DNA of 34,517 nucleotides from Armatimonadota bacterium. GTDB taxonomy: Bacteria > Armatimonadota > Zipacnadia > Zipacnadales > VGFC01. Under the pieces are notes generated by a model. The model was given only the letters and a program-made list of their open reading frames with translations. It searched no databases and was not told where the DNA came from. Within the stretch, counting starts at the first letter, position 1, and each line of letters opens with the position of its first letter. A program made the position numbers and the translations under genes. Shown here in pieces: positions 18,141-33,743 of the stretch. The stretch lies in NCBI GenBank assembly GCA_016869045.1, contig VGFC01000001.1, positions 1 to 34,517 on the forward strand. The letters run 5' to 3'.

Positions 18141-18482
18141 GTGAAGATCGGGCTGTATGCTCTCGCAACATGCGTCGGGTTGGTCGGGCTGGTGTTCCTG
18201 GTGGGGAACCAGGGGCTCGTCCAGCGGATGGTGGTCGGCGCGGTGCTGGTCGGGGCGGCGATCGCGATCATGGGGCTGACGCGGCTGAAGGCGCCGGCGC
18301 CGAGCGTCCACATCGTCCAGAACATCGACCTGCCGGGGGAATCGGACCTCGAGCAACTCAAGTGCCGCAACTGCGCCGCGCCGCTGGACGAGAAGAGCGT
18401 CGAGCTGAGGGATGGCGCGATCTTCGTCAAGTGCCCGCACTGCGGCACCTCCTACCAGATCGAGGAGGCGCCGAAGTGGTGA
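18141..18482 (+). CDS. small two-TM protein with C-terminal zinc ribbon, first gene of the radical SAM cassette
   Basis: The product is 113 aa from a GTG at 18141. Two hydrophobic helices (about 4-22 and 28-48) are followed by a linker (50-70) and a compact zinc ribbon (about 73-105) with paired CRNC and CPHC knuckles (CRNCAAPLDEKS, FVKCPHCGTSYQI). The family is not named in my knowledge; the layout suggests a membrane-anchored adaptor with a cytoplasmic metal-binding head. Its TGA overlaps the GTG of the radical SAM gene, so the two are made together. It might tether the modifying enzymes near the DUF2207 membrane protein encoded downstream; that is inference. Confidence 0.75.
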   Translation: MKIGLYALATCVGLVGLVFLVGNQGLVQRMVVGAVLVGAAIAIMGLTRLKAPAPSVHIVQNIDLPGESDLEQLKCRNCAAPLDEKSVELRDGAIFVKCPHCGTSYQIEEAPKW

Positions 18483-19882
18483 AGCAGGCCTGGCGTCGAG
18501 TGGCCGGCGCCCTGGTCCGCGATCTGCGGGCCTTCCGGCTGGCCCTGGGTGCTCCGCGGCCGGGGCTTCGGGCGTATCGGATCGAGACGGACGGCGGTCA
18601 GCTCCGTCTGCACCTCCGTGTGCATGGGGATGGCTCGGGCGCGCTGTTCGTCGATGTCTCGCAGGTCATCCATCTGACGCCCTCGGCGGCTCAGATCGCG
18701 CGCCTGCTGCTGGACGGCCTGGCCGCGCGGGCGGTCGTGAGGCTGCTGGCCGCACGCCATCCGGAAACGCCCTCCGAGCAGATCGTGGCCGACGTGCGGA
18801 CGGTCGAGGGCGTGATCGACGCCCTGAAGCAGCCGGGCGGCGCCTGCCCGACGTGCGACCCGGGCTTCGAGCGCTCGCCGATCTTCTCGCACCGCGCTCA
18901 CGCCCCGTACAAGGCGGACCTCGCGCTCACCTACGCCTGCAACAACCGCTGCGCGCACTGCTACAACGAGCCTCTGCGGCGCGGCACGCGCCCTCTGGGC
19001 CTGCGCGACTGGCGCCGGGTCATCCGGACGCTGGCGCGGGTCGGCGTGCCTCACCTCATCTTCACCGGCGGCGAGCCGACCCTCCACGAGGGGCTACCCG
19101 ACCTCATCCGCTGCGCCGAGCGGCTCGGGCAGGTCACCGGCGTGAACACCAACGGTCGCCGCCTGGCGGACGGCGGATTCGCGGGGCGGCTGAAGGCGGC
19201 CGGTCTGGACCATGTCCAGATCACCCTGCCCTCTCACCACCCGGAGTTGCATAACGCGATCGTCTGCGGGGACGCCTACGAGGAGACCGTTCGCGGCATC
19301 CGCAACAGCCTCGACGCCGGGTTGCACACGCTGACGAACACGACCCTGACGCGACGGAACGCCGGGGAGGTGGTCGAGGTCGTCGAGTTCCTGTATGCCC
19401 TCGGCGTGCGGACCTTCGCGATGAACGGGATGATCTGCTCAGGTGGGGGGCGCCTCAACCCGGACACGCTCGACGAGACGGAGCTAGTTCCGCTCCTGGG
19501 GGAAGTGCAGGAGCGCGCCGAGGCGCTGGGGATGCGCTTCCTGTGGTACACGCCGACCGAGTACTGCCGTCTGTCGCCGGTAGACCTGGGCCTGGGCGCC
19601 AAGGCCTGCAACGCGGCGGAGTACTCGATCTGCGTCGAGCCCAACGGCGACGTGCTGCCCTGCCAGTCGTACTACGAGCCGGCCGGGAACCTGCTGCGCC
19701 ACGACTGGGCGGCGATCTGGGACAGCGCCCTGTTCCGGCGCATCCGTCTGCGACGCGAGAACCCGCGAGTGGCCGGCCTGGATGAACGCTGCTACGACTG
19801 CCCGGACCTGCAGCTCTGCGGCGGAGGATGTGTGCTTCAGCGGGAGACGCAACGCAAGGAGGCTCTCGTGCATGTCCGCTAG
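18479..19882 (+). CDS. PqqD-like/radical SAM/SPASM maturase
   Basis: The product is 467 aa from GTG 18479, which overlaps the preceding stop; the frame opens further upstream but only antisense to the zinc-ribbon frame. Residues about 30-118 form a PqqD-like peptide-recognition domain (FVDVSQVIHLTPSAAQIARL). The radical SAM core (about 148-360) holds the [4Fe-4S] motif CNNRCAHC (Cys154, 158, 161), the SAM-contacting TGGEPTL and GVNTNGRRL. The SPASM domain (about 370-455) has Cys377, Cys385, Cys395 and a terminal CX2CX5CX3C (Cys438, 441, 447, 451), enough for two auxiliary clusters. Enzymes with this architecture usually modify ribosomally made peptides, for example forming thioether links. 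The next gene encodes a degenerate paralogue; the candidate substrate is the Cys-rich tail of the DUF2207 protein. Confidence 0.92.
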   Translation: MKQAWRRVAGALVRDLRAFRLALGAPRPGLRAYRIETDGGQLRLHLRVHGDGSGALFVDVSQVIHLTPSAAQIARLLLDGLAARAVVRLLAARHPETPSEQIVADVRTVEGVIDALKQPGGACPTCDPGFERSPIFSHRAHAPYKADLALTYACNNRCAHCYNEPLRRGTRPLGLRDWRRVIRTLARVGVPHLIFTGGEPTLHEGLPDLIRCAERLGQVTGVNTNGRRLADGGFAGRLKAAGLDHVQITLPSHHPELHNAIVCGDAYEETVRGIRNSLDAGLHTLTNTTLTRRNAGEVVEVVEFLYALGVRTFAMNGMICSGGGRLNPDTLDETELVPLLGEVQERAEALGMRFLWYTPTEYCRLSPVDLGLGAKACNAAEYSICVEPNGDVLPCQSYYEPAGNLLRHDWAAIWDSALFRRIRLRRENPRVAGLDERCYDCPDLQLCGGGCVLQRETQRKEALVHVR

Positions 19883-21143
19883 GGGACCCGATTTCGCCGC
19901 GCCCGGCCTGTACCACTACACGCAGCTGCCGGGCGGCTTCCCGGTGCGCTTCCACCTGCGGATCGACCCCGACGGCGCGGGCTTGCTGCTGGCCAACGCG
20001 TCGGAGGCCGCGCACCTCTCGCCGGTTGGCGTGACGATGGTCCGAGGTGCGCTGGAGGGCTTCGACGACACCGAGATCATCCAGCGGGTGCGCGCCGACT
20101 TCTCCGGCGGCAGTATCGCGCAGGTGACGAAGGACCTGGAGGGCGTGCGCAAGCTGCTGGCGGACCTGTTGACGCCCGGAGACAACTACCCGATCACGAA
20201 CTTCGGCGGCGACACGCCCACCGCGAGGCGCCGCCTCCTCGCGCCCTTCCAGGCCTACGTGACGCAGGCCGAGCCAGCCGGCGTCGAGCCGATCCTGCGG
20301 AACCTCTGGGAGGCCGGGGTGCCGCAGGTCACCCTCATCGCGCAGCCCAGCCTGCCGCCCGAGGGCCTGGCGCGAATCGTCGAGTGCGCGGAGGACCTGG
20401 GCATGATCGCCGGCATCCGGGCCCTGGCGAGCTGGCTGCCGGAAGGCGTCCTGCGGGAGGCGGGCATGGCCGGGCTCGATTTCCTCCAACTCGTTCTCGT
20501 CTCCGCCGGCGCCGCCGACCACGACCTGCTGACCCAGCCGGGCGACCTGGCGGCTTTCACGCAGGCCGTGGACGTGTGCCACGACATGGAGCTGTGCCCC
20601 GTGGCGCAGATTCCCCTCACGGACCGCAACGCGGATGACCTGCCGGAGATCGCGGAGTTTGCAGGGGGGAAGGCCATCCGCACCCTCAGCTTCTTCGCAC
20701 TCGCGTGCCTCGACGGCGAGGAGGAACAGGACGCGGCCGGCGCCTTGCCGGCGCGTGCCCTGCCGCAGGTCGCGACGATGGTCGCGGAGTGCGCGGAGGA
20801 GTGCGGGGCACGCTTCCTGTGGGACCCGCCGGTGAGGTTCAATCTACGGAAGGCCCTGGCCGACCACATCAGTGCCGGCCCGCGCGCGGGGGCCGAGGCG
20901 TCGATCCGCGTGGAACCCGAGGGGACGGTGTACGCCCCGCGCGGACCCCGCGAGCCCTGCGGCAATCTCCTGCGGCAGTCCTGGGACGCGATCTGGAAGC
21001 ACCCGGCGTTCGCCCGCTACCGCGACCTCGTGGAGGCGCCGTCCCGCTGCCCCACGTGCCCCGGCCTCGCGCTGTGCGCCGCGGCGTGCCCCAAGGACCC
21101 GACGGGCTGGTCCGATGACACCGTGACGGGGGGACCGGAATGA
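19872..21143 (+). CDS. pseudo-radical SAM/SPASM partner protein
   Basis: The product is 423 aa from ATG 19872, overlapping the radical SAM gene by 11 bp. It aligns by eye along its whole length with the preceding protein: a PqqD-like N-terminus (HLSPVGVTMVRGALEGFDD), then a barrel-like middle. Where the enzyme has the cluster loop CNNRCAHC this protein has AYVTQAEPAG, with no cysteines; TGGEPTL is replaced by IAQPSLP and VNTNGR by IRALAS. The SPASM part keeps the terminal CX2CX5CX3C (Cys393, 396, 402, 406) but has lost the first cysteines (SIRVEPEG where the enzyme has SICVEPNG). It therefore cannot bind the SAM-cleaving cluster and is probably a non-catalytic subunit. Pseudo-rSAM/SPASM partners are known from a few peptide-modification systems (for example GeoRSP). 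Confidence 0.85.
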   Translation: MSARGPDFAAPGLYHYTQLPGGFPVRFHLRIDPDGAGLLLANASEAAHLSPVGVTMVRGALEGFDDTEIIQRVRADFSGGSIAQVTKDLEGVRKLLADLLTPGDNYPITNFGGDTPTARRRLLAPFQAYVTQAEPAGVEPILRNLWEAGVPQVTLIAQPSLPPEGLARIVECAEDLGMIAGIRALASWLPEGVLREAGMAGLDFLQLVLVSAGAADHDLLTQPGDLAAFTQAVDVCHDMELCPVAQIPLTDRNADDLPEIAEFAGGKAIRTLSFFALACLDGEEEQDAAGALPARALPQVATMVAECAEECGARFLWDPPVRFNLRKALADHISAGPRAGAEASIRVEPEGTVYAPRGPREPCGNLLRQSWDAIWKHPAFARYRDLVEAPSRCPTCPGLALCAAACPKDPTGWSDDTVTGGPE

Positions 21144-23092
21144 GAGGGCGTGTGAGAAGCACGGCATCGGGCGTGATGAATCACGCCCCTACACCTGGGC
21201 ACGATGAATCGTGCCCCTACATGACGGCGATCTGCCGTCGTTGGGGGCGTAGGGGCGCGATTCATCGCGCCCAATCGTGTAGCGGGCGCCATTCATGGCG
21301 CCCCCCCGCGCTGCTCATCGTCGCGGTCATCTGCTTCGCCGCCACCACCGGTGCGCAGGACTACCGGTTCAGCGTGCCCGAGATGCTGCTGGATGTGTAC
21401 GTGAACCCGGATGCGTCCGTCACGCTCGACTACACGATCACCTTCCAGTGCAGCCTCGGCGCCCACCCGATCGACATCGTGGACATGGGGCTTCCCGACC
21501 GGGACTATGACATCGGGAACATGACTGCCTCGATCAACGACGTCCCCCTCTCCGGCATCCGCAAGTCCACCGCGATCGACTGCGGCGTCGAGGTGCCGCT
21601 CGGCGCGAGCCAGATCCAGCCCGGGCAGAGCGGGGTCTTTCGCTTCAAGGCCACCATGCCCAACCGCGTCTACCAGGACACGACGCGCAGGGATCTCGCC
21701 TCGCTGTGGATCACGCCCACCTGGTGGGGCCCGCAGTATGTTCAGGGCACGGGGAAGATCGCCGTGGTCGTCTACCTTCCCGGGGCGATCAAGCCCGACG
21801 AGGTCCTGCACCAGGGCCGCAACTTCACGCTCAAGGGAACGAAGGGGTCGCAGACCATCGTTGCCTGGCTCCTGGAAAACGAGCGCGCGGACAGCCCGCG
21901 CAAGTTCGCGCTGTCCTTCCCGAAGCGCACGATGGCGCGCGTCGTTCGGCAGACCGTCTGGGGCCTGGCCCTCAAATGGTGGCGCGAGAACCCTGGGGCG
22001 CGCCTCATCTGGGCGGTCGTGCTGTTCATCCTGTACGGAATCGCCTTCTTCCGCGCCAGCAAGGGGACGGGCGTCAGCGCCTTCATCTTCCTGGTGATCG
22101 GCCTGAGCGTCTGCTTCGTCCTGTGGCCCGTGTTCGAGCTGTTCGCGCTTCCGCTCCTCATCCCCATCTGGATCCTCGCCGAAAAGGGCCTCCGCAGGCG
22201 CAGCGGACGCTACCTGCCGGCCATCGTCTCCGTCGAGGCCGGTGGCATCAAGCGCGGCCTGTCCGCCCCCGAGGCGGCGATCCTCCTGGAACTGCCGCTG
22301 GGCCGCGTGCTGACGCTGATCATCTTCGGCCTGCTGAAGAAGAGCATCGTCAAGCAACTCGAAGCCGACCCCCTTGAGGTGCAGGTGGCTCCCGAGTACG
22401 CGGGTCTGGCGCGGAAGGACCGCCAGGCGAAGGCGCGGGCTCTCGGGACGGTCATCCACGCCTACGAGCAGCCGTTCCTCGAGGAGATCGAAGCTCACCC
22501 GGGCCATCCGCTCAACCGAATCGACTTCGGCAAGCCGATGAAGGCTGCCGTCGAGACCACAGCCAAGCGCCTGAAGGGCTTCGACGTCGAACGCACGCGC
22601 AGCTACTACCGCTACATCGTGAGCCGCGCGTGGGCCGAGGCCAAGGCCATCGGGGACGTCGAGAAGCGAACCGAGTACACCGACGACAACCTGCTGTGGC
22701 TGCTGGCGGCGGACCGCGGCTACGATGACTTCGGCTACTGGCACTCCCACGGGTATGACTACCATCCGCCTTGGGGCCGCCCGACGCCCGGCGGCATCCC
22801 GACGCCCAGCTCCGCGGGAGGCCGGACGAGCTTGGCCGACGTCTCGCGCTCGTTCGCGGGTTGGGCCGAGGGCGTGACGGGCGGCCTCGCCGGCAAGATG
22901 GACCCGGTCTCCGTCGGTCTGAAGACCGGCGGGCTGGTCAACCTGTCCGGCGTGGACAAGGTCACCGTGGATGTGCTCGAATCCCTCGCCTCCAGCAGCG
23001 GCTCGGGTGGCGGCGGAGGCGGGGGCGGCGGCTGTGCGTGCGCCTGCGCCGGGTGTGCGTGCGCCTGCGCGTGCGCGGGAGGCGGGAGGTAG
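21140..23092 (+). CDS. DUF2207-type membrane protein with poly-Gly and CACACAGC Cys-rich tail
   Basis: The product is 650 aa from ATG 21140, which overlaps the preceding stop (ATGA); an internal ATG near 21221 is an alternative start. The signal-like hydrophobic segment (ALLIVAVICFAATTGA, about 57-72) is preceded by about 46 residues encoded by palindromic repeats. An extracytoplasmic DUF2207-like domain (about 75-270) is followed by three hydrophobic helices (about 286-350) with basic loops (FFRASKG, KGLRRRSGR) that put the C-terminus in the cytoplasm, then a winged-helix-like segment (LSAPEAAILLELPLGRVLTL). The end is SSSGSG, nine glycines, and CACACAGCACACACAGGGR, with seven cysteines at 632, 634, 636, 639, 641, 643 and 645. 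Gly-rich ends are common in DUF2207 proteins; the alternating Cys/Ala tail beside radical SAM genes marks it as a probable modification substrate. Confidence 0.8.
   Translation: MRGRVRSTASGVMNHAPTPGHDESCPYMTAICRRWGRRGAIHRAQSCSGRHSWRPPALLIVAVICFAATTGAQDYRFSVPEMLLDVYVNPDASVTLDYTITFQCSLGAHPIDIVDMGLPDRDYDIGNMTASINDVPLSGIRKSTAIDCGVEVPLGASQIQPGQSGVFRFKATMPNRVYQDTTRRDLASLWITPTWWGPQYVQGTGKIAVVVYLPGAIKPDEVLHQGRNFTLKGTKGSQTIVAWLLENERADSPRKFALSFPKRTMARVVRQTVWGLALKWWRENPGARLIWAVVLFILYGIAFFRASKGTGVSAFIFLVIGLSVCFVLWPVFELFALPLLIPIWILAEKGLRRRSGRYLPAIVSVEAGGIKRGLSAPEAAILLELPLGRVLTLIIFGLLKKSIVKQLEADPLEVQVAPEYAGLARKDRQAKARALGTVIHAYEQPFLEEIEAHPGHPLNRIDFGKPMKAAVETTAKRLKGFDVERTRSYYRYIVSRAWAEAKAIGDVEKRTEYTDDNLLWLLAADRGYDDFGYWHSHGYDYHPPWGRPTPGGIPTPSSAGGRTSLADVSRSFAGWAEGVTGGLAGKMDPVSVGLKTGGLVNLSGVDKVTVDVLESLASSSGSGGGGGGGGGCACACAGCACACACAGGGR
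21169..21303. repeat. cluster of four palindromic elements inside the 5' end of the DUF2207 gene
   Basis: Four 20-bp palindromes: GGGCGTGATGAATCACGCCC (21169-21188), GGGCACGATGAATCGTGCCC (21197-21216), GGGCGCGATTCATCGCGCCC (21253-21272) and GGGCGCCATTCATGGCGCCC (21284-21303). The first two carry CTAC on the right and the last two carry GTAG on the left, so the block is arranged head to head. The third and fourth form the composite unit also found at 26338 and 33181. The reading frame from 21140 stays open through all of it. Confidence 0.85.
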
Positions 23093-23099
23093 AGCAGGT

Positions 23100-23153
23100 A
23101 GGGACTGTCCCGTTGCCTGCCCGCCTTTGGCAGGCAACGAGGACTGTCCCCTG
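23100..23153. repeat. nested palindrome GGGACTGTCCC with inner stem
   Basis: GGGACTGTCCC, then GTTGCCTGCC, a 7-nt loop, GGCAGGCAAC, and GAGGACTGTCCCC form a nested inverted repeat between the DUF2207 gene and the methyltransferase. The inner stem is 10 bp. No T-run follows, so it is a repeat element more than a terminator, though it could reduce read-through into the next gene. Confidence 0.7.
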
Positions 23154-23178
23154 TTGGTCGTGTCGATGGCACCTCAAC

Positions 23179-23901
23179 ATGGCACGCCCGGACCTTCCCG
23201 ACCCCGAACCGTCCCTTCGCCTCGCCGAGTGGCTCGCCGGGCCGCGCGGGCGACTCCTGCGTCGGGCGCAGATCGGCCAACGGCGGCGCGTGCTGGAGGT
23301 GGGTTGCGGCCACGGCTTCGTAACCGAAGAGCTGGTCCGGCGGGTTCCCGGCCAAGTGGTAGCCCTCGACCGCGACATCCGCCCGGCAGCCTCGCGGGGC
23401 GTGCCCGGCGCGCAGCTCGTTCGGGCCGACGCCGCGGCTCTCCCCTTCGGTGACGCCTCGTTCGGCCTCGTCCTCTTCCAGAACACGCTGCTGTGGGTCA
23501 GTGACCCTCGGGTCGCCATCGAAGAGGCGACACGTGTGCTTCTGCCGAGGGGCTGCCTTCTCGCCATCGAGCCGGACTTCGGTGGCATGATCGAGTACCC
23601 GCCGGAGATCGCGCTGCAGGACGTGTGGCTGCGGGCGCTGGCGGCCTGTGGCGCCGATCCGCTGATCGGACGCAAGCTGCCGGGGATGTGCGAACGGACA
23701 GGCCTGGAGGTGTGGACCGAACTGCAAGGCTTCCCCCAGCCGGTCGGCGAGACGACCACCGGCCTGCTACGCGGACTGCCCCTGACCGACCACGACGAGA
23801 CGCGGGTCTGCCGGGCCGAGGAGCGCCTCGCCTCGCGGAGCGGAACCTGGGAGCCGTTCGTCCACGTCCCGTACTTCCTGATCGCGGCCACGAAGCGCTG
23901 A
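23179..23901 (+). CDS. class I SAM-dependent methyltransferase
   Basis: The product is 240 aa from ATG 23179 (MARPDLPDPEPSLRLAEWLA); the ribosome site is weak and the start follows a palindrome. Motif I is VLEVGCGHGFVTEELV (from residue 38), followed by VVALDRDIRPA (acidic residue for the ribose), VRADAAALPFGDASFGLVLF (motifs II/III of the Methyltransf_11 type) and EATRVLLPRGCLLAIEPDFG. The C-terminal part is variable and would select the substrate. The gene is 86 bp beyond the DUF2207 gene on the same strand and may be the last member of the radical SAM cassette, but the gap and the palindrome leave it possibly independent. Substrate unknown. Confidence 0.85.
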   Translation: MARPDLPDPEPSLRLAEWLAGPRGRLLRRAQIGQRRRVLEVGCGHGFVTEELVRRVPGQVVALDRDIRPAASRGVPGAQLVRADAAALPFGDASFGLVLFQNTLLWVSDPRVAIEEATRVLLPRGCLLAIEPDFGGMIEYPPEIALQDVWLRALAACGADPLIGRKLPGMCERTGLEVWTELQGFPQPVGETTTGLLRGLPLTDHDETRVCRAEERLASRSGTWEPFVHVPYFLIAATKR

Positions 23902-24094: not shown

Positions 24095-26311
24095 ATGCAG
24101 TACCGACCCAAGCTCTGGATCGCAATTCTGCTGGCGCTTCTGGTCTGCGGATTCGAGATCGGGTTCCAGCCGATTCGCTTCATCCACCACAAGCAAACCA
24201 TGGAGGCGGCGGTCGATTTCGACCTTGGTCAGCCGGCCGCGACCGATGAGGCGGGACTGACGGAGAAGCTCGCGACAATCCGCACTGAACTGGCCGCGGC
24301 CGGCCTCAAAGAGCAGGCGATCAAGGACCTCCGCTTCGTGACCCCCTCGCGCCTGCGCCTGGCGACAACGGCCCTCACCGACGAGCAGCGGAACACCGAC
24401 AAGAGCATGGCCCTTTCGACCCTCCAGAAGCAGTTCAAGGGTGTGAAGGCGATCGATGCCGCCCCTGAGGACGCTGAGGCGGCCAACGCCGTGGCTCGGA
24501 TGGGGCCGATCGGCGTGTTCCGGCCCGTTCCGAACGTCCGGCTGGGGCTGGACCTCCAGGGCGGCGCCCATGTCGTCCTCCAGTGCAAGCCCAGCACCGA
24601 GATGACCTTCGCGACCCCTGAGGACCGCCCGATGTGGGCCGAGGCGAAGGGCAAGGAGAGCGAGAAGCCCGCCGAGCCGGCCGCCAAGGAGACCAAGTCC
24701 GAGACCAAGACGGAGACGAAGGCCGAGGAGAAGGCGGCGGAGTCCAAGGAGGGCAAGGAAGCCCCGTCCGAGGAGACCGGGACCGAAGAGAAGGCCTCGG
24801 AGACCCCCGAAGCCAAAGAGCCGCCCCCCGCCGAGACCAAGAGCGAGACCAAGACCGAGTCGTCCCCCGGCGGACCGTGGAAGCCCGGCGAGACGAGAGA
24901 GTCCTTGCTCGCCAAGATCGAGAAGCTGCTGAAGGACGAGGGCGTGCCGGCCTTCGAGGCCGGCGCTCCGGCGCCCAACCGGCTCCTCGTGAAGACACAG
25001 AGCACCTCGGAAGAGCAGGTCACCCAGCAGCAAGACGCCATCCTCAAGTGGCTCAACACGCGCTATGAGGGCGTGAAGATCGACGCCGGCAAGCCCTCCA
25101 GCGTCTTCGTCACCCGAGACACGGCGGCCAAGGCGAAGCATATCATCGACCTGCGGCTGTACAGCATGAGCGAGATCAAGGAGCCGATCGTGCAGACGCA
25201 GGGCCAGGATCGGATCATCGTCGAGCTGCCCGGCGTCAAGGAACCCGAGCGCGTCACCAAGATCCTGCAGAGCACGGCGCAACTGGAGTTTCGCCTCGTG
25301 CCGGAACGCTACAGCTGCCCGGGCGCCGGCGACAACGACTACACCTCCTGGGAGGACTCGCAGACCGGACAGCGGGTGACCGAGCGGCGCGTGCTCGACG
25401 AGTCGCCCGTTCAGTTCACCGGTGCGGACCTCAAGCCAAACGCCGCTGTCGTGCCGTCCGACGTGCCGAGTCAGTTCGAGGTACAGTTCGAGATCAAGGA
25501 GAGCCGCAAACGCGAGTTTGCCGAGTTCACCCGCAACAACGTCGGTCGCATCATGTCGATCATCCTGGACGACGAGACCAAGATGGCGCCGGTCATCAAG
25601 AGCGAGATCCCCGGTCAGGGCGTCATCTCCGGCGACATGGACGCCCAGGACGCGGGGGAGCTGCGTCTGCTGCTGAACGCCGGTGCGCTGCCGGTGCCGT
25701 TGGAGATCGTGGAGAACCGCACCGTCAGCGCTACCCTGGGCGAGAACGCGATCCGCCAGAGCATCATCGCCGGCATCGTCGGCTTCATCCTGGTCGCGAT
25801 GTTCATGGTGGCCTACTACCGGCTCCCGGGTCTGCTGGCCGACTTCGCTCTGACGCTCTACGTCGTGCTCCTGCTCGCCTTGCTCTCGACCTGGTCACCC
25901 ATCCAGACGACGCTGACCCTGCCCGGGATCGCGGGGATCATCCTCTCGATCGGCATGGCGGTGGACGCGAACGTCATCATCTTCGAACGCATCCGTGAGG
26001 AGCTGCGGGTCCGCACCACAACGCGCGCCGCTGTCGAGGCCGGCTTCCATCGCGCCTGGCCCGCGATCCTGGACGCCAATGTCACCACCGTAATCGGCGC
26101 CGCAGCCCTGTACTTCTTCGGCACCAGCTCCATCAAGAGCTTCGCCGTGACACTGCTGCTGGGTGTCTGCACCCACCTGTTCACTGCCGTTACCGCCTCC
26201 CGGTGGCTCGTCCACATCGTTGCCCGCACCCACCTCGGGGAGAACCGGGCCCTGTTCGGGGTGGAGCCCCTCGAGACCCCCGCCGTCGCACCGGCGGGCG
26301 GCTCCGAGTAG
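24095..26311 (+). CDS. secD: protein translocase subunit SecD
   Basis: SecD forms with SecF the proton-driven membrane complex that assists late steps of Sec export. The product is 738 aa, longer than many SecD proteins. TM1 is at about 8-26, the first periplasmic (P1) region contains VRLGLDLQGGAHVVLQC, and the C-terminal RND-type block of five helices (about 560-720) contains GMAVDANVIIFERIREELR and the motif region near SAVAALYFFGTSSIKS-type sequence. Between about 185 and 262 lies an inserted low-complexity stretch rich in Glu, Lys, Thr and Pro (AKETKSETKTETKAEEKAAE) that most SecD proteins lack. It has its own promoter, and secF follows after a palindromic repeat. Confidence 0.95.
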   Translation: MQYRPKLWIAILLALLVCGFEIGFQPIRFIHHKQTMEAAVDFDLGQPAATDEAGLTEKLATIRTELAAAGLKEQAIKDLRFVTPSRLRLATTALTDEQRNTDKSMALSTLQKQFKGVKAIDAAPEDAEAANAVARMGPIGVFRPVPNVRLGLDLQGGAHVVLQCKPSTEMTFATPEDRPMWAEAKGKESEKPAEPAAKETKSETKTETKAEEKAAESKEGKEAPSEETGTEEKASETPEAKEPPPAETKSETKTESSPGGPWKPGETRESLLAKIEKLLKDEGVPAFEAGAPAPNRLLVKTQSTSEEQVTQQQDAILKWLNTRYEGVKIDAGKPSSVFVTRDTAAKAKHIIDLRLYSMSEIKEPIVQTQGQDRIIVELPGVKEPERVTKILQSTAQLEFRLVPERYSCPGAGDNDYTSWEDSQTGQRVTERRVLDESPVQFTGADLKPNAAVVPSDVPSQFEVQFEIKESRKREFAEFTRNNVGRIMSIILDDETKMAPVIKSEIPGQGVISGDMDAQDAGELRLLLNAGALPVPLEIVENRTVSATLGENAIRQSIIAGIVGFILVAMFMVAYYRLPGLLADFALTLYVVLLLALLSTWSPIQTTLTLPGIAGIILSIGMAVDANVIIFERIREELRVRTTTRAAVEAGFHRAWPAILDANVTTVIGAAALYFFGTSSIKSFAVTLLLGVCTHLFTAVTASRWLVHIVARTHLGENRALFGVEPLETPAVAPAGGSE

Positions 26312-26337
26312 GGCGGCGATCTGCACTCGTTTGTAAC

Positions 26338-26391
26338 GTAGGGGCGCGATTCATCGCGCCCGATCGTGTAGGGGCGCCATTCATGGCGCCC
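26338..26391. repeat. 54-bp composite palindromic element between secD and secF
   Basis: GTAG plus GGGCGCGATTCATCGCGCCC (26338-26361), a 6-bp joint, then GTAG plus GGGCGCCATTCATGGCGCCC (26368-26391). The two palindromes start 30 bp apart. The same pair, with the same spacing, occurs at 21249-21303 and 33181-33234. Confidence 0.9.
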
Positions 26392-26426
26392 GCCCACGCT
26401 CCAATCGCGTAGGAGGGAGTCTCTCG

Positions 26427-27812
26427 GTGGACCTGTTTCGCAATCGGCGCTGGGATCTCGTGGGGAAAGCGTGGCTCTGGTACACGATCTCCGTCGCCAT
26501 CACGATTCCCGGCCTGATCATGTGGATGGCCGCGGGCCTCAACCTGGGGATCGACTTCACGGGTGGGGCCATCATGAAGTACGAGTTCGCGCAACCGCTC
26601 GCCGCCTTCCCGGGTGGCGAGCCGGCGGCGATGGAGGCGGTGCGCCGCGTCGTGGCGAGCCGCGAGGTCGGCTACGAGAAGAACGAGGTCCAGGTGGCCG
26701 ACCAACGCTGGGTCATCGTCCGCATCAACGAGTTCAGCGAGGAGCAGCGGAAGGTCGCCCAGCAGAAGATCCAGCAGGCCCTCGAGAAGACCCTCGGCTC
26801 GAGTTGCGGCGCGGTCACCCAGGCCTCCGACGTCGAGTTCGTCGGACCGGTCGTGGGGGAGGACCTCAAGCGGGGCGCCGAGTGGGCCCTCATCGTCGGC
26901 GTCGGTGGCATCCTCATCTACGTCTCGTTGCGGTACCGCTTCCGCTTTGCCGTGGCCGCCATCATCGCTCTCGTTCACGACGTCCTGATCCTCACCGGCG
27001 TCATGGCCCTGCTGCGGGTCGAGGTGAACTCGCCCTTCGTGGCGACGATCCTCACCGTCTTCGGCTACTCCATCAACGACACCGTCGTCATCTTCGACCG
27101 CATTCGAGAGAACCAGACCCTCCATCGCCAGGCGCCCTTCGCGGCGACGGTCAACTCCAGCCTGCTCCAGACGATGGCCCGGTCGGTCAACACGGTCCTG
27201 ACCGTCGAGATCACCCTCATCTGCCTCTACTTCTTCGGCGGGGCTTCGATCAAGCCGTTTGCCCTCTCGCTGATCGTGGGCATCACCTCCGGGTGCTACT
27301 CCTCCATCTTCAACGCCAGCCAGCTCCTCGTGACCTGGCAGCGCATGTGGGAGGGCGGAGCCGGTCAGAAGCTCTGGTGGCGCGCCATCCTCGCCCTGGC
27401 GCCCGCACTCGCCATCGGCGTCACCCTGGAGCTGATCGCCAGCCGCTTCGAGCTGAACCGCCTGTACCCGTTCACCAAGGTGCCGGCCCTCTACTGGATC
27501 GCGGTGCTTTCCTACGTCGTCGGCCTGCTGCTGACGAAGTACTTCTCCGTCGGCGCCCTGCGGGTGCTGGCGGGTGTGCCTGCCTCCCGCGGCGGCGTCC
27601 CGGCCCGGGCCGCTGCGCCCGCCAGGCCCGTCGTCTCCGCGGCCGCGGGCGCTGCGGGCCTGCCGACGTCGGGCGGGGCCCCCGGCACGAGCGCCATGGA
27701 GGCCGCCTCGGCCGCCGCCGCCGAAGCCCGCCGCGAGGAGCGCCGCGAACGCCGCGAGCAGCGCAAGACCAAGGACAAGCGCAAGGCGGGCGATCGCAAG
27801 AAGAGGTTCTGA
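26427..27812 (+). CDS. secF: protein translocase subunit SecF with extended C-terminus
   Basis: The product is 461 aa (SecF is usually about 300) from GTG 26427 with TAGGAGGG upstream. The core (1-315) has TM1, LGIDFTGGAIMKYEF at the start of the periplasmic domain, VVGEDLKRGAEWALIVGVGG, and the RND helices with GYSINDTVVIFDRIRENQ. After the sixth helix come two further hydrophobic segments (about 322-342 and 355-375), then an Ala/Pro/Gly linker and a strongly basic end (RREERRERREQRKTKDKRK) that may contact ribosomes or lipid head groups in the cytoplasm. Partner of the SecD encoded upstream. Confidence 0.95.
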   Translation: MDLFRNRRWDLVGKAWLWYTISVAITIPGLIMWMAAGLNLGIDFTGGAIMKYEFAQPLAAFPGGEPAAMEAVRRVVASREVGYEKNEVQVADQRWVIVRINEFSEEQRKVAQQKIQQALEKTLGSSCGAVTQASDVEFVGPVVGEDLKRGAEWALIVGVGGILIYVSLRYRFRFAVAAIIALVHDVLILTGVMALLRVEVNSPFVATILTVFGYSINDTVVIFDRIRENQTLHRQAPFAATVNSSLLQTMARSVNTVLTVEITLICLYFFGGASIKPFALSLIVGITSGCYSSIFNASQLLVTWQRMWEGGAGQKLWWRAILALAPALAIGVTLELIASRFELNRLYPFTKVPALYWIAVLSYVVGLLLTKYFSVGALRVLAGVPASRGGVPARAAAPARPVVSAAAGAAGLPTSGGAPGTSAMEAASAAAAEARREERRERREQRKTKDKRKAGDRKKRF

Positions 27813-31898: not shown

Positions 31899-33743
31899 TT
31901 ACGGTGGCGGCTCACCTGCGCGGACGTCCCGCGCCGGCCTCGGCTCGCTGCGCAGGATGAGAGCGCGGTCGGTCTGGCCGATGGTCGTGACCATGCCGTG
32001 GGCGGCGGCCTCGAACTCCGGCCAGAAGCGCCGGCGGCAGATGATGACGGCCGTCGGGCCGGGCGTCAGCACGCTCTCCGCATCTTCCATGCGGTAGACC
32101 CGGCCCCTGAGTCGGCCGGCATTCCCCGGGAACTCGTACTCCGCCGGCGCATTGCCGAACACCGCCACTCGGTCGTCCAGGTAGAACACGGTCCCCCGCG
32201 AGAGCTGGCGGATCGAGAAGATGCGCTCGCCCGGCTTGCGCAGTTCGGCGACCTTCTGCGCGAGGGCCTTGTCGGAGGGGAAACGCGGGTCGCGACCTGC
32301 AGACCAGAGCAGCACGTGATACGACGCCAGCAGCGAGATCGCCAGCAGCGCGACCGCCCACTTGCGGGCGCGCAGGATCGCCGCCGCGATCACCTCCAGG
32401 CCGGCCAGCGCCCAGATCAACGCGACCGGCTTCACCGCCACCGGGAGCGACTGCCCCAGCTTCACGAACACGACGGCCGCCGCCACACCAATGAGCAGGA
32501 TCCCCGTCCCGACTGCCGCCCACAGGCCGCGCTTGCGGGCCGGCGAGACATACCGCCCAATCAGCAGCGCAATCGGCGGGAGACAGGGCAGGATGTAGGT
32601 CTCCACTTTCACCTTCGAGAGGCTGAAGAGCACGAGCGGAACCGCGACCCACACCAGCCAGAGAATGCAGGCGCGCCGCTGCGGCTCCTCGCCATGCCGT
32701 CGCCCCCCAAAGCCGTCGGTGACGGCTCCCGGGAGGAACAGCGTCCACGGCCAGCAGGCCCCCAACAGGACCGGCCCGAGGTACCACCACGCTTGCTGGT
32801 GCGCCGCGTCGATCTCGCCCGTCACCCGCGCGACGTTCTCGTGCAGCAGGAAGAAGCGGATCGCCCCCGGGTTCGCATGCTCGCAGAGCGCGAACCAGGG
32901 CACGATGATCACCGCCAGAATGCCCAGCACCGCCAGCCACGGCACCTGCAGCAGGGCGCTCAGGCGCCGGGTCAATCCGAGATAGGGAACCATGACGAAG
33001 ACCGGAAGGACCAGCGCAATCGGCCCCTTCACCAGCACACCTAGCCCTGCCGCCGCGGCCGCCAGGCAGTAGTACCCTCGCCCCCCACCGCCGTATCTGG
33101 CGGCGCGATCCCGCCCCCCACCGTCTCCCCCGCCGTATGTAGGGGCGCGATCCCGCCCCCCACCGTCTCCCCCGCCGTATGTAGGGGCGCGATTCATCGC
33201 GCCCGACCGTGTAGGGGCGCCATTCATGGCGCCCGTCCCCTCTCGCCCTCCCTCCGATCCCAACCACGCCCACCAGATCGTCGCCGTGACCGCCAACGTC
33301 AGCAGCATGTCGTAGCGGATCACCCGCCCGACCGCGAACCACAGGACGCTCGTGGCGAGCACCGCCGCCGCCGCGATCCCCGCGTGGTGGCCGAAGACGT
33401 GTCGTCCGAAGGCGTAGGTCAGGGCGACGCCGGCCGCCGCCGCCAGCAGGGAGGACAGCCGGACCGCGAACTCGTGTGGCCCGAAGAGGCCGATGCTCAG
33501 GGCGGTGAGCCAGTGCAGCAGGGGCGGCTTGTCCAGGTAAGCGAAGCCGTTGAGGCGAGGTGTGACGAAGTCGCCGCTAGCCCACATCGCCTGCCCGACG
33601 GCCGCGTAGCGCGCTTCATCGGGCTCCACCAGCCCCGGCGAGCTCAACCGCAGACCGCACACCGCGACGGTCAGCACGAACACGGCCACTGTCGCCAGCG
33701 GGGGCGACCAGCGGTCAGTCTGGGCGGCCCGTTTGTGCGACAA
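31899..33743 (-). CDS. ArnT-like (GT39/GT83) membrane glycosyltransferase carrying an in-frame repeat insertion
   Basis: The product is 614 aa from a TTG at 33743 with GGAGGGGGA just upstream. Family landmarks: VEPDEARYAAVGQAMWASGD in the first periplasmic loop (Glu/Asp needed for catalysis), GFAYLDKPPLLHWLTAL, and in the second half KVKVETYILPCLPPIALLIG. About a dozen hydrophobic helices are present. Such enzymes transfer a sugar from a polyprenyl-phosphate donor to lipid A or another envelope acceptor. Residues about 168-222, between two helices, are encoded by palindromic and 42-bp tandem repeats (GAMNGAPTRSGAMNRAPTY, then GGGDGGGRDRAPTY and GGGDGGGRDRAARY). The rest of the family lacks this insert. 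The frame stays open, so the protein may tolerate it in the loop. It lies between the UPF0104 and hydrolase genes. Confidence 0.88.
   Translation of the reverse strand: MSHKRAAQTDRWSPPLATVAVFVLTVAVCGLRLSSPGLVEPDEARYAAVGQAMWASGDFVTPRLNGFAYLDKPPLLHWLTALSIGLFGPHEFAVRLSSLLAAAAGVALTYAFGRHVFGHHAGIAAAAVLATSVLWFAVGRVIRYDMLLTLAVTATIWWAWLGSEGGREGTGAMNGAPTRSGAMNRAPTYGGGDGGGRDRAPTYGGGDGGGRDRAARYGGGGRGYYCLAAAAAGLGVLVKGPIALVLPVFVMVPYLGLTRRLSALLQVPWLAVLGILAVIIVPWFALCEHANPGAIRFFLLHENVARVTGEIDAAHQQAWWYLGPVLLGACWPWTLFLPGAVTDGFGGRRHGEEPQRRACILWLVWVAVPLVLFSLSKVKVETYILPCLPPIALLIGRYVSPARKRGLWAAVGTGILLIGVAAAVVFVKLGQSLPVAVKPVALIWALAGLEVIAAAILRARKWAVALLAISLLASYHVLLWSAGRDPRFPSDKALAQKVAELRKPGERIFSIRQLSRGTVFYLDDRVAVFGNAPAEYEFPGNAGRLRGRVYRMEDAESVLTPGPTAVIICRRRFWPEFEAAAHGMVTTIGQTDRALILRSEPRPARDVRAGEPPP
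33093..33234. repeat. 42-bp tandem repeats plus composite palindrome inside the ArnT-like gene
   Basis: Two 42-bp units (33093-33134 and 33135-33176, differing near the left end) and the start of a third run straight into the 54-bp composite palindrome (33181-33204 and 33211-33234). The unit length of 14 codons and the total keep the minus-strand frame open. The tandem unit itself begins like the palindrome (GTAGGGGCGCGAT) and then departs from it, as if derived from a damaged copy. Confidence 0.9.

Follow-up and report, generated by a model that had tools for sequence, protein, structure and literature searches.

What does a radical SAM enzyme act on when its neighbors are an apparently inactive paralogue and a membrane protein ending in alternating cysteines and alanines? 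This question is raised by the window analyzed here, a stretch of 34,517 nucleotides (positions 1 to 34,517 of contig VGFC01000001.1) from an Armatimonadota bacterium, in which five genes at 18141–23901 on the plus strand form a cassette in the order ZR, RS1, RS2, D22, and MT. Re-reading the ORFs from the sequence returned the same overlaps of 4, 11, and 4 bp (18479/18482, 19872/19882, and 21140/21143) that had been recorded in an earlier reading made without database searches (here, the sequence-only reading). We propose, with a probability of about three in four, that the cassette encodes a protein-embedded, RiPP-like maturation system that acts in place on the D22 tail.

RS1 (18479–19882, plus strand, as are all features below) combines a PqqD-like/RRE domain with radical SAM and SPASM domains. 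It matched PF04055 at 4.9e-23 (82.6 bits, cutoff 29.5) and SPASM at 7.4e-9 (36.2 bits, cutoff 21.5); the PqqD match was weak (1.2e-3, 19.5 bits, below the cutoff of 23.4), and profile positions 20 to 95 of the N-terminal domain aligned with the PqqD-like TfuB1. Its CxxxCxxC cluster motif, CNNRCAHC (18938–18961), completes the signature of the radical SAM superfamily, and the SPASM domain together with the RRE/PqqD-like domain places RS1 among the SPASM peptide maturases. The cluster cysteines (C134, C138, and C141 of alignment A2) were invariant, and every full-length orthologue listed carried the motif. By profile, the nearest solved structures were SkfB (6efn), PqqE (6c8v), and SuiB (5v1q); the RS1 cassette fitted none of the sactipeptide family models.

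RS2 (19872–21143) aligned with RS1 over 405 columns in profile-profile comparison (probability 100, E 9e-68, 28% identity), with a gap where the CxxxCxxC loop of RS1 is deleted, and its AF2 model (pLDDT 87) had SuiB as its best fold match (1.3e-11). SPASM matches of RS2 were weak throughout. The CxxxCxxC motif that defines radical SAM proteins was absent from all homologues of RS2 and of RS2b, a second pseudo-paralogue that plays the same part in most Chloroflexota and has lost the SPASM cysteines too. These results bear out the pseudo-radical SAM partner proposed in the sequence-only reading, and, as judged by fold and homology, RS2 is best described as a predicted pseudo-radical SAM protein. 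RS2 and RS2b form separate clades; a single origin was compatible with the data (AU p 0.27), and we therefore did not adopt two independent losses of the cluster. In one case (L037), RS1 and RS2 are naturally fused.

The next gene product, D22 (21140–23092), bears the tail. It had no Pfam or NCBIfam match, PF09972 being absent even at E ≤ 5, and a colinear profile match related it to DUF2207 proteins (probability 92, E 8e-7). The earlier label of DUF2207 membrane protein thus holds as remote homology but not as a PF09972 match. Like the window protein, the D22 proteins of L056, L051, and L172 gave no PF09972 match, and the gathering score was passed only by one D22 of the sister group described below (L230, 25.4 against a cutoff of 24.4). 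Matches to TIGR04222 were weak (homologues of L056, L227, and L230) and reached 20.0 and 22.8 bits at best against a cutoff of 43, and the window D22 had none. In the AF2 model of D22 (pLDDT 86), a signal peptide leads into a beta domain on the extracytoplasmic side, which is similar in fold to the N-terminal domains of M1 aminopeptidases and of OST1. Three TM helices (model residues 232–254, 259–275, and 277–301; 21992–22201), supported also by hydropathy, a helical cytoplasmic domain, and a disordered C-terminus follow. Most homologues outside Armatimonadota have one TM helix followed by 3 to 6 Lys/Arg within 15 residues, so that the side after the last helix is K/R-rich. The modeled three-helix topology and these basic residues agree in predicting that the tail is cytoplasmic, on the same side as the enzymes, in both the one-TM and the three-TM forms, as had been suggested from the sequence.

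Two structural variants of the gene were also seen. A short dispersed element (GCGATGAATCGCGCCCCTAC) has 4 copies in the window where 0 are expected (21201–21268, 26338–26357, and 33181–33200); two copies in opposite orientation lie in the 5′ part of D22, so that the window protein has an N-terminal extension of ∼50 residues that is absent from its relatives. Two Chloroflexota loci (L040:6193–9669 and L042:9700–12900) have a tandem D22 pair, with additional genes between RS1 and RS2.

D22 of the window ends in GGGGGGGGGCACACAGCACACACAGGGR, and its last 19 codons (23033–23089), which include seven for Cys, encode the (Cys-Ala)n tail CACACAGCACACACAGGGR, a putative core for modification that closes with an invariant GGGR at the C-terminus. 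The last 10 residues were CACACAGGGR in all 72 distinct D22 proteins compared, drawn from four phyla. Their codons were mixed, with both Cys, all four Gly, three or four Ala, and all six Arg codons in use. Because these residues are fixed while synonymous codons vary, and because D22 outside the tail is only 24–43% identical between lineages, the invariance reflects selection on the peptide and not a DNA repeat. The central Gly is kept in most tails and is lacking in the archaeal ones (CACACACACACAGGGR).

To find tails independently of the enzyme, we surveyed genomes of four phyla with a DNA pattern for CxCAGGGR-stop, using the reversed pattern as a control. Hits came from 40 of 291 Armatimonadota genomes (control, 0), 33 of 400 Chloroflexota (control, 3), 19 of 247 Acidobacteriota (control, 0), and 9 of 243 Thermoplasmatota (control, 0), the name used here for the archaeal phylum of genome G296. 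Matches other than CACAGGGR, 2 in Armatimonadota and 5 in Chloroflexota (L094, L098, L160, and L174–L177), were dropped from the count as chance hits because none came with cassette genes. This left 94 tail-bearing genomes (38 Armatimonadota, 28 Chloroflexota, 9 Thermoplasmatota, and 19 Acidobacteriota). The reversed-pattern controls and the codon variation rule out a chance repeat or GC-rich DNA as the source of the tail. Nor is it the ordinary poly-Gly tail of DUF2207 proteins, since the canonical members in the same genomes (G004 and G005) end in poly-Gly-Trp (GGGGW) and have no Cys there.

We then asked how closely the tail follows the enzymes. D22 was present in 34 of 41 near relatives, and searches with RS1 retrieved the same gene set from Armatimonadota, Chloroflexota, Acidobacteria, and Methanomassiliicoccales archaea. 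Across the 400 Chloroflexota genomes of the tail survey, the tail and RS1 (orthologues at profile E < 1e-145) occurred in the same 28 and neither occurred in the other 372, a count over genomes that are not phylogenetically independent. In all 19 Acidobacteriota and all 9 Thermoplasmatota with the tail, it lay in a D22-RS1 locus. Tails that are common in genomes without the enzymes, which the sequence-only reading had named as telling against it, were thus not observed. The cassette is split in three genomes (G047, G046, and G298), with RS1 elsewhere, and RS1 was not found in one tail-bearing draft genome (G045); where RS1 is solitary, in rumen Anaerolineae, each genome encodes a normal tailed D22 at another site. 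The pseudo-partner is missing in archaea and in nearly all Acidobacteriota; for this reason we regard RS2 as dispensable and accessory.

The enzymes might also have belonged to some other Cys-rich peptide, the second outcome named in advance as adverse. A search of the cassettes for a second conserved Cys peptide found none, and the sister enzymes described below adjoin a scaffold of the D22 type whose Cys tail is of a different kind. A related end on a short ORF was seen only in a rumen Anaerolineae locus (L057:7789–8001), where 60 codons encode a signal peptide and a terminal CDNCAHACAGGGR just before RS1. As a free RiPP precursor this ORF was rejected, since it is probably an internally deleted D22 remnant. 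Two further loci (L053 and L055) contain only broken D22 remnants, and the genomes of all three loci each have a normal D22 elsewhere. The conserved Cys-rich partner is a membrane protein, not the short free precursor that characterizes sactipeptide and ranthipeptide systems.

A sister system gave the best genomic evidence for what the tail is. In each of three Chloroflexota genomes, an RS1 homologue of a second tier (E between 1e-93 and 1e-102) directly adjoins a divergent D22 whose C-terminal tail is a Cys-rich (CHSA)n/CVHDA repeat (L227:7669–10847, L228:4792–8114, and L230:2649–5824). Among 340 sampled genomes, the CHSA repeat occurred in 2, both with the sister enzyme. Enzyme subfamily and tail type thus change together while the scaffold remains constant, and this covariation argues that the tail is the substrate. 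Together with the co-occurrence data, the pairing supports the sequence-only reading, in which a membrane protein carries its own modification substrate as a tail.

ZR and MT belong to the cassette by linkage, and the roles given for them below are guesses. ZR (18141–18482) is a small membrane protein with two TM helices, seen as two hydrophobic segments in its homologues, followed on the cytoplasmic side by a CxxC...CxxC zinc ribbon, which matched the zinc-finger domain TIGR02098 at 21.1 bits (cutoff 20.9). It ends in EEAPKW, and nearly all of 75 distinct homologue C-termini share the ..PKW end. The gene is linked in 27 of 28 Chloroflexota, 19 of 19 Acidobacteriota, and 8 of 9 archaeal loci. 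MT (23179–23901), a class I SAM methyltransferase (PF08241, 9.5e-17), is linked in 9 of 9 archaeal and 23 of 28 Chloroflexota loci; its best NCBIfam model, the DVU_1556 methyltransferase (NF045667), scored 63.2 bits, below the membership cutoff of 155. In the window, 86 bp separate D22 from MT, and a second repeat-like inverted element (gggactgtcccgttgcctgcccgcctttggcaggcaacgaggactgtcccc, 23100–23165) occupies this gap. Downstream of the cassette, secD and secF lie on the same strand at 24095–27812.

Other genes accompany the cassette in some lineages. Six Chloroflexota loci, among them L149, L150, L152, L153, and L154, have a predicted Rex-type redox repressor gene (c11) and a predicted MreB/actin-like gene (c12) in the vicinity. 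Anaerolineae cassettes (L157, L159, L161–L164, and L167–L173) have extra conserved genes: c5, present at 12 loci, encodes 338 aa of unassigned family, and the products of the others are predicted to be PAS-like (c13), membrane-anchored with an HExxH motif (c7), similar to dual-specificity phosphatases (c8), and signal peptidase I (c6). We also considered anti-phage defence and set it aside, because PADLOC found no defence system composition in the cassette; its matches, to radical SAM (pVip, 54.6 bits) and methyltransferase models, were all generic.

These observations suggest the following course of events. D22 would be inserted into the membrane by its signal peptide, with the beta domain outside and everything from the C-terminal domain through the Gly linker to the tail on the cytoplasmic side. 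RS1 would bind it through the PqqD-like domain, the free GGGR end, or both, and apply radical SAM chemistry to the (Cys-Ala)n tail; on the genomic evidence, we consider modification of the tail by RS1 likely. The products would most plausibly be Cys thioethers to neighboring carbons. The thioether is assumed because RS1 is of the SPASM family, and SPASM enzymes perform other chemistries as well, so that we give this product even odds. Where present, RS2 would be catalytically dead and most likely form a heterodimer with RS1, holding or feeding the repetitive substrate. ZR probably serves as an enzyme scaffold at the membrane or in thiol handling, and MT may add or complete methylation. The product probably stays permanently anchored rather than being released, and on its membrane anchor it may finally serve in metal or redox binding.

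A variant of this reading, whose confidence overlaps with that of the reading itself, makes the tail the core of a released peptide: D22 would be leader and anchor, RS1 and RS2 would modify the tail, and a protease would cut the Gly linker. This accords with RiPP logic and with the Gly-rich linker that precedes the core, and many Anaerolineae cassettes do have an HExxH membrane-anchored protein and signal peptidase I nearby. However, no protease recurs in all four phyla and the cassette has no exporter, and the D22 body carries invariant residues of its own, so that D22 is more than a leader. Release is unlikely. We regard as improbable that the tail stays unmodified and binds metals or thiols in the manner of a metallothionein, next to enzymes that are linked to it but modify something else or build a cofactor for the protein. 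Soft metals could bind to a CxCxCxC array as it stands, and nearly every cassette has a zinc-ribbon protein close by, but a pure metal ligand would need neither strict Ala alternation nor an invariant GGGR. Moreover, the tail co-occurs perfectly with an enzyme of the peptide-maturase type, the sister enzyme comes with a tail of another sequence, and the cassettes showed no second conserved Cys peptide.

The conserved end might instead reflect DNA or translation, with GGN GGN GGN AGR acting as a Shine-Dalgarno sequence for the next gene. At L053, L055, and L057, D22 or its remnant does run into RS1, with a GGAGG-like stretch just before the RS1 start. The end is nevertheless kept in the gene order of the window, where MT follows only after the gap, and at each of its positions the choice among synonymous Gly, Arg, Cys, or Ala codons is free. 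The codon data contradict this as a general cause, and we consider it extremely improbable.

If in-place maturation of the tail is correct, RiPP chemistry reaches beyond small molecules and small metal binders: in Bacteria and Archaea alike, a membrane protein would receive a crosslinked Cys array at its cytoplasmic end from radical SAM enzymes. CACACAGGGR, kept across domains, is a defined substrate, so the chemistry can be tested directly by mass spectrometry. The cassette also provides a clear pair of active and pseudo-radical SAM proteins, and the matched sister system with its other repeat offers a means to dissect recognition.

By their own cutoffs, the sactipeptide, DUF2207, TIGR04222, and DVU_1556 families all leave the cassette outside. 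Among the openly available journal papers searched, none contained CACACAGGGR, DUF2207 plus radical SAM, or this gene combination; the three with CACACAG and radical SAM concern viperin, and the string there is presumably primer DNA and not the tail. Sactipeptide and ranthipeptide maturases of the SkfB, CteB, and RumMC type share the RRE-like, radical SAM, and SPASM domains and a Cys-rich substrate, and SkfB is the best solved-structure match of RS1, but here the putative substrate forms the C-terminus of a 500–650-aa membrane protein and a pseudo-enzyme partner is added. Anaerobic sulfatase-maturating enzymes and QhpD-type enzymes use radical SAM/SPASM chemistry to modify a residue within a full-size protein. 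In contrast, no catalytic enzyme is matured here, and what would be modified is a tail of Cys-Ala repeats. DUF2207 proteins (PF09972) resemble D22 in having a signal peptide, beta domain, TM segment, cytoplasmic domain, and Gly-rich tail, and differ in the canonical Cys-free end and in the family match that the window D22 lacks. In the TrsS/DVU_1556/DVU_1557 radical SAM (seleno)protein system of NCBIfam, MT is nearest to DVU_1556 and ZR is faintly like the redox protein DVU_1557, with all scores far below cutoffs, and we know of no D22-like protein in that system.

The closest published idea concerns MNIO (DUF692) enzymes and TIGR04222 membrane proteins, whose low-complexity, Cys-rich C-termini have been proposed as in-place, RiPP-type MNIO substrates; there, the tail is a periplasmic Ser/Gly region with scattered Cys, and one-third of TIGR04222-bearing genomes lack an MNIO (PMC12452194). 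DUF2207/TIGR04222-type proteins could be a general scaffold for C-terminal, in-place RiPP cores, an idea as apt to be wrong as right: MNIO would serve one branch, the radical SAM/pseudo-radical SAM pair with (CA)n-GGGR would serve four phyla, and the sister enzyme with (CHSA)n would serve others, the result being a permanently membrane-anchored, crosslinked, cofactor-like poly-Cys tail and not a secreted natural product. The MNIO system and the present one both place a Cys-rich C-terminal region on a membrane protein as a putative in-place substrate, but the cassette described here pairs it with radical SAM enzymes, an exact (CA)n-GGGR sequence, a predicted cytoplasmic location, and a much tighter linkage of tail and enzyme.
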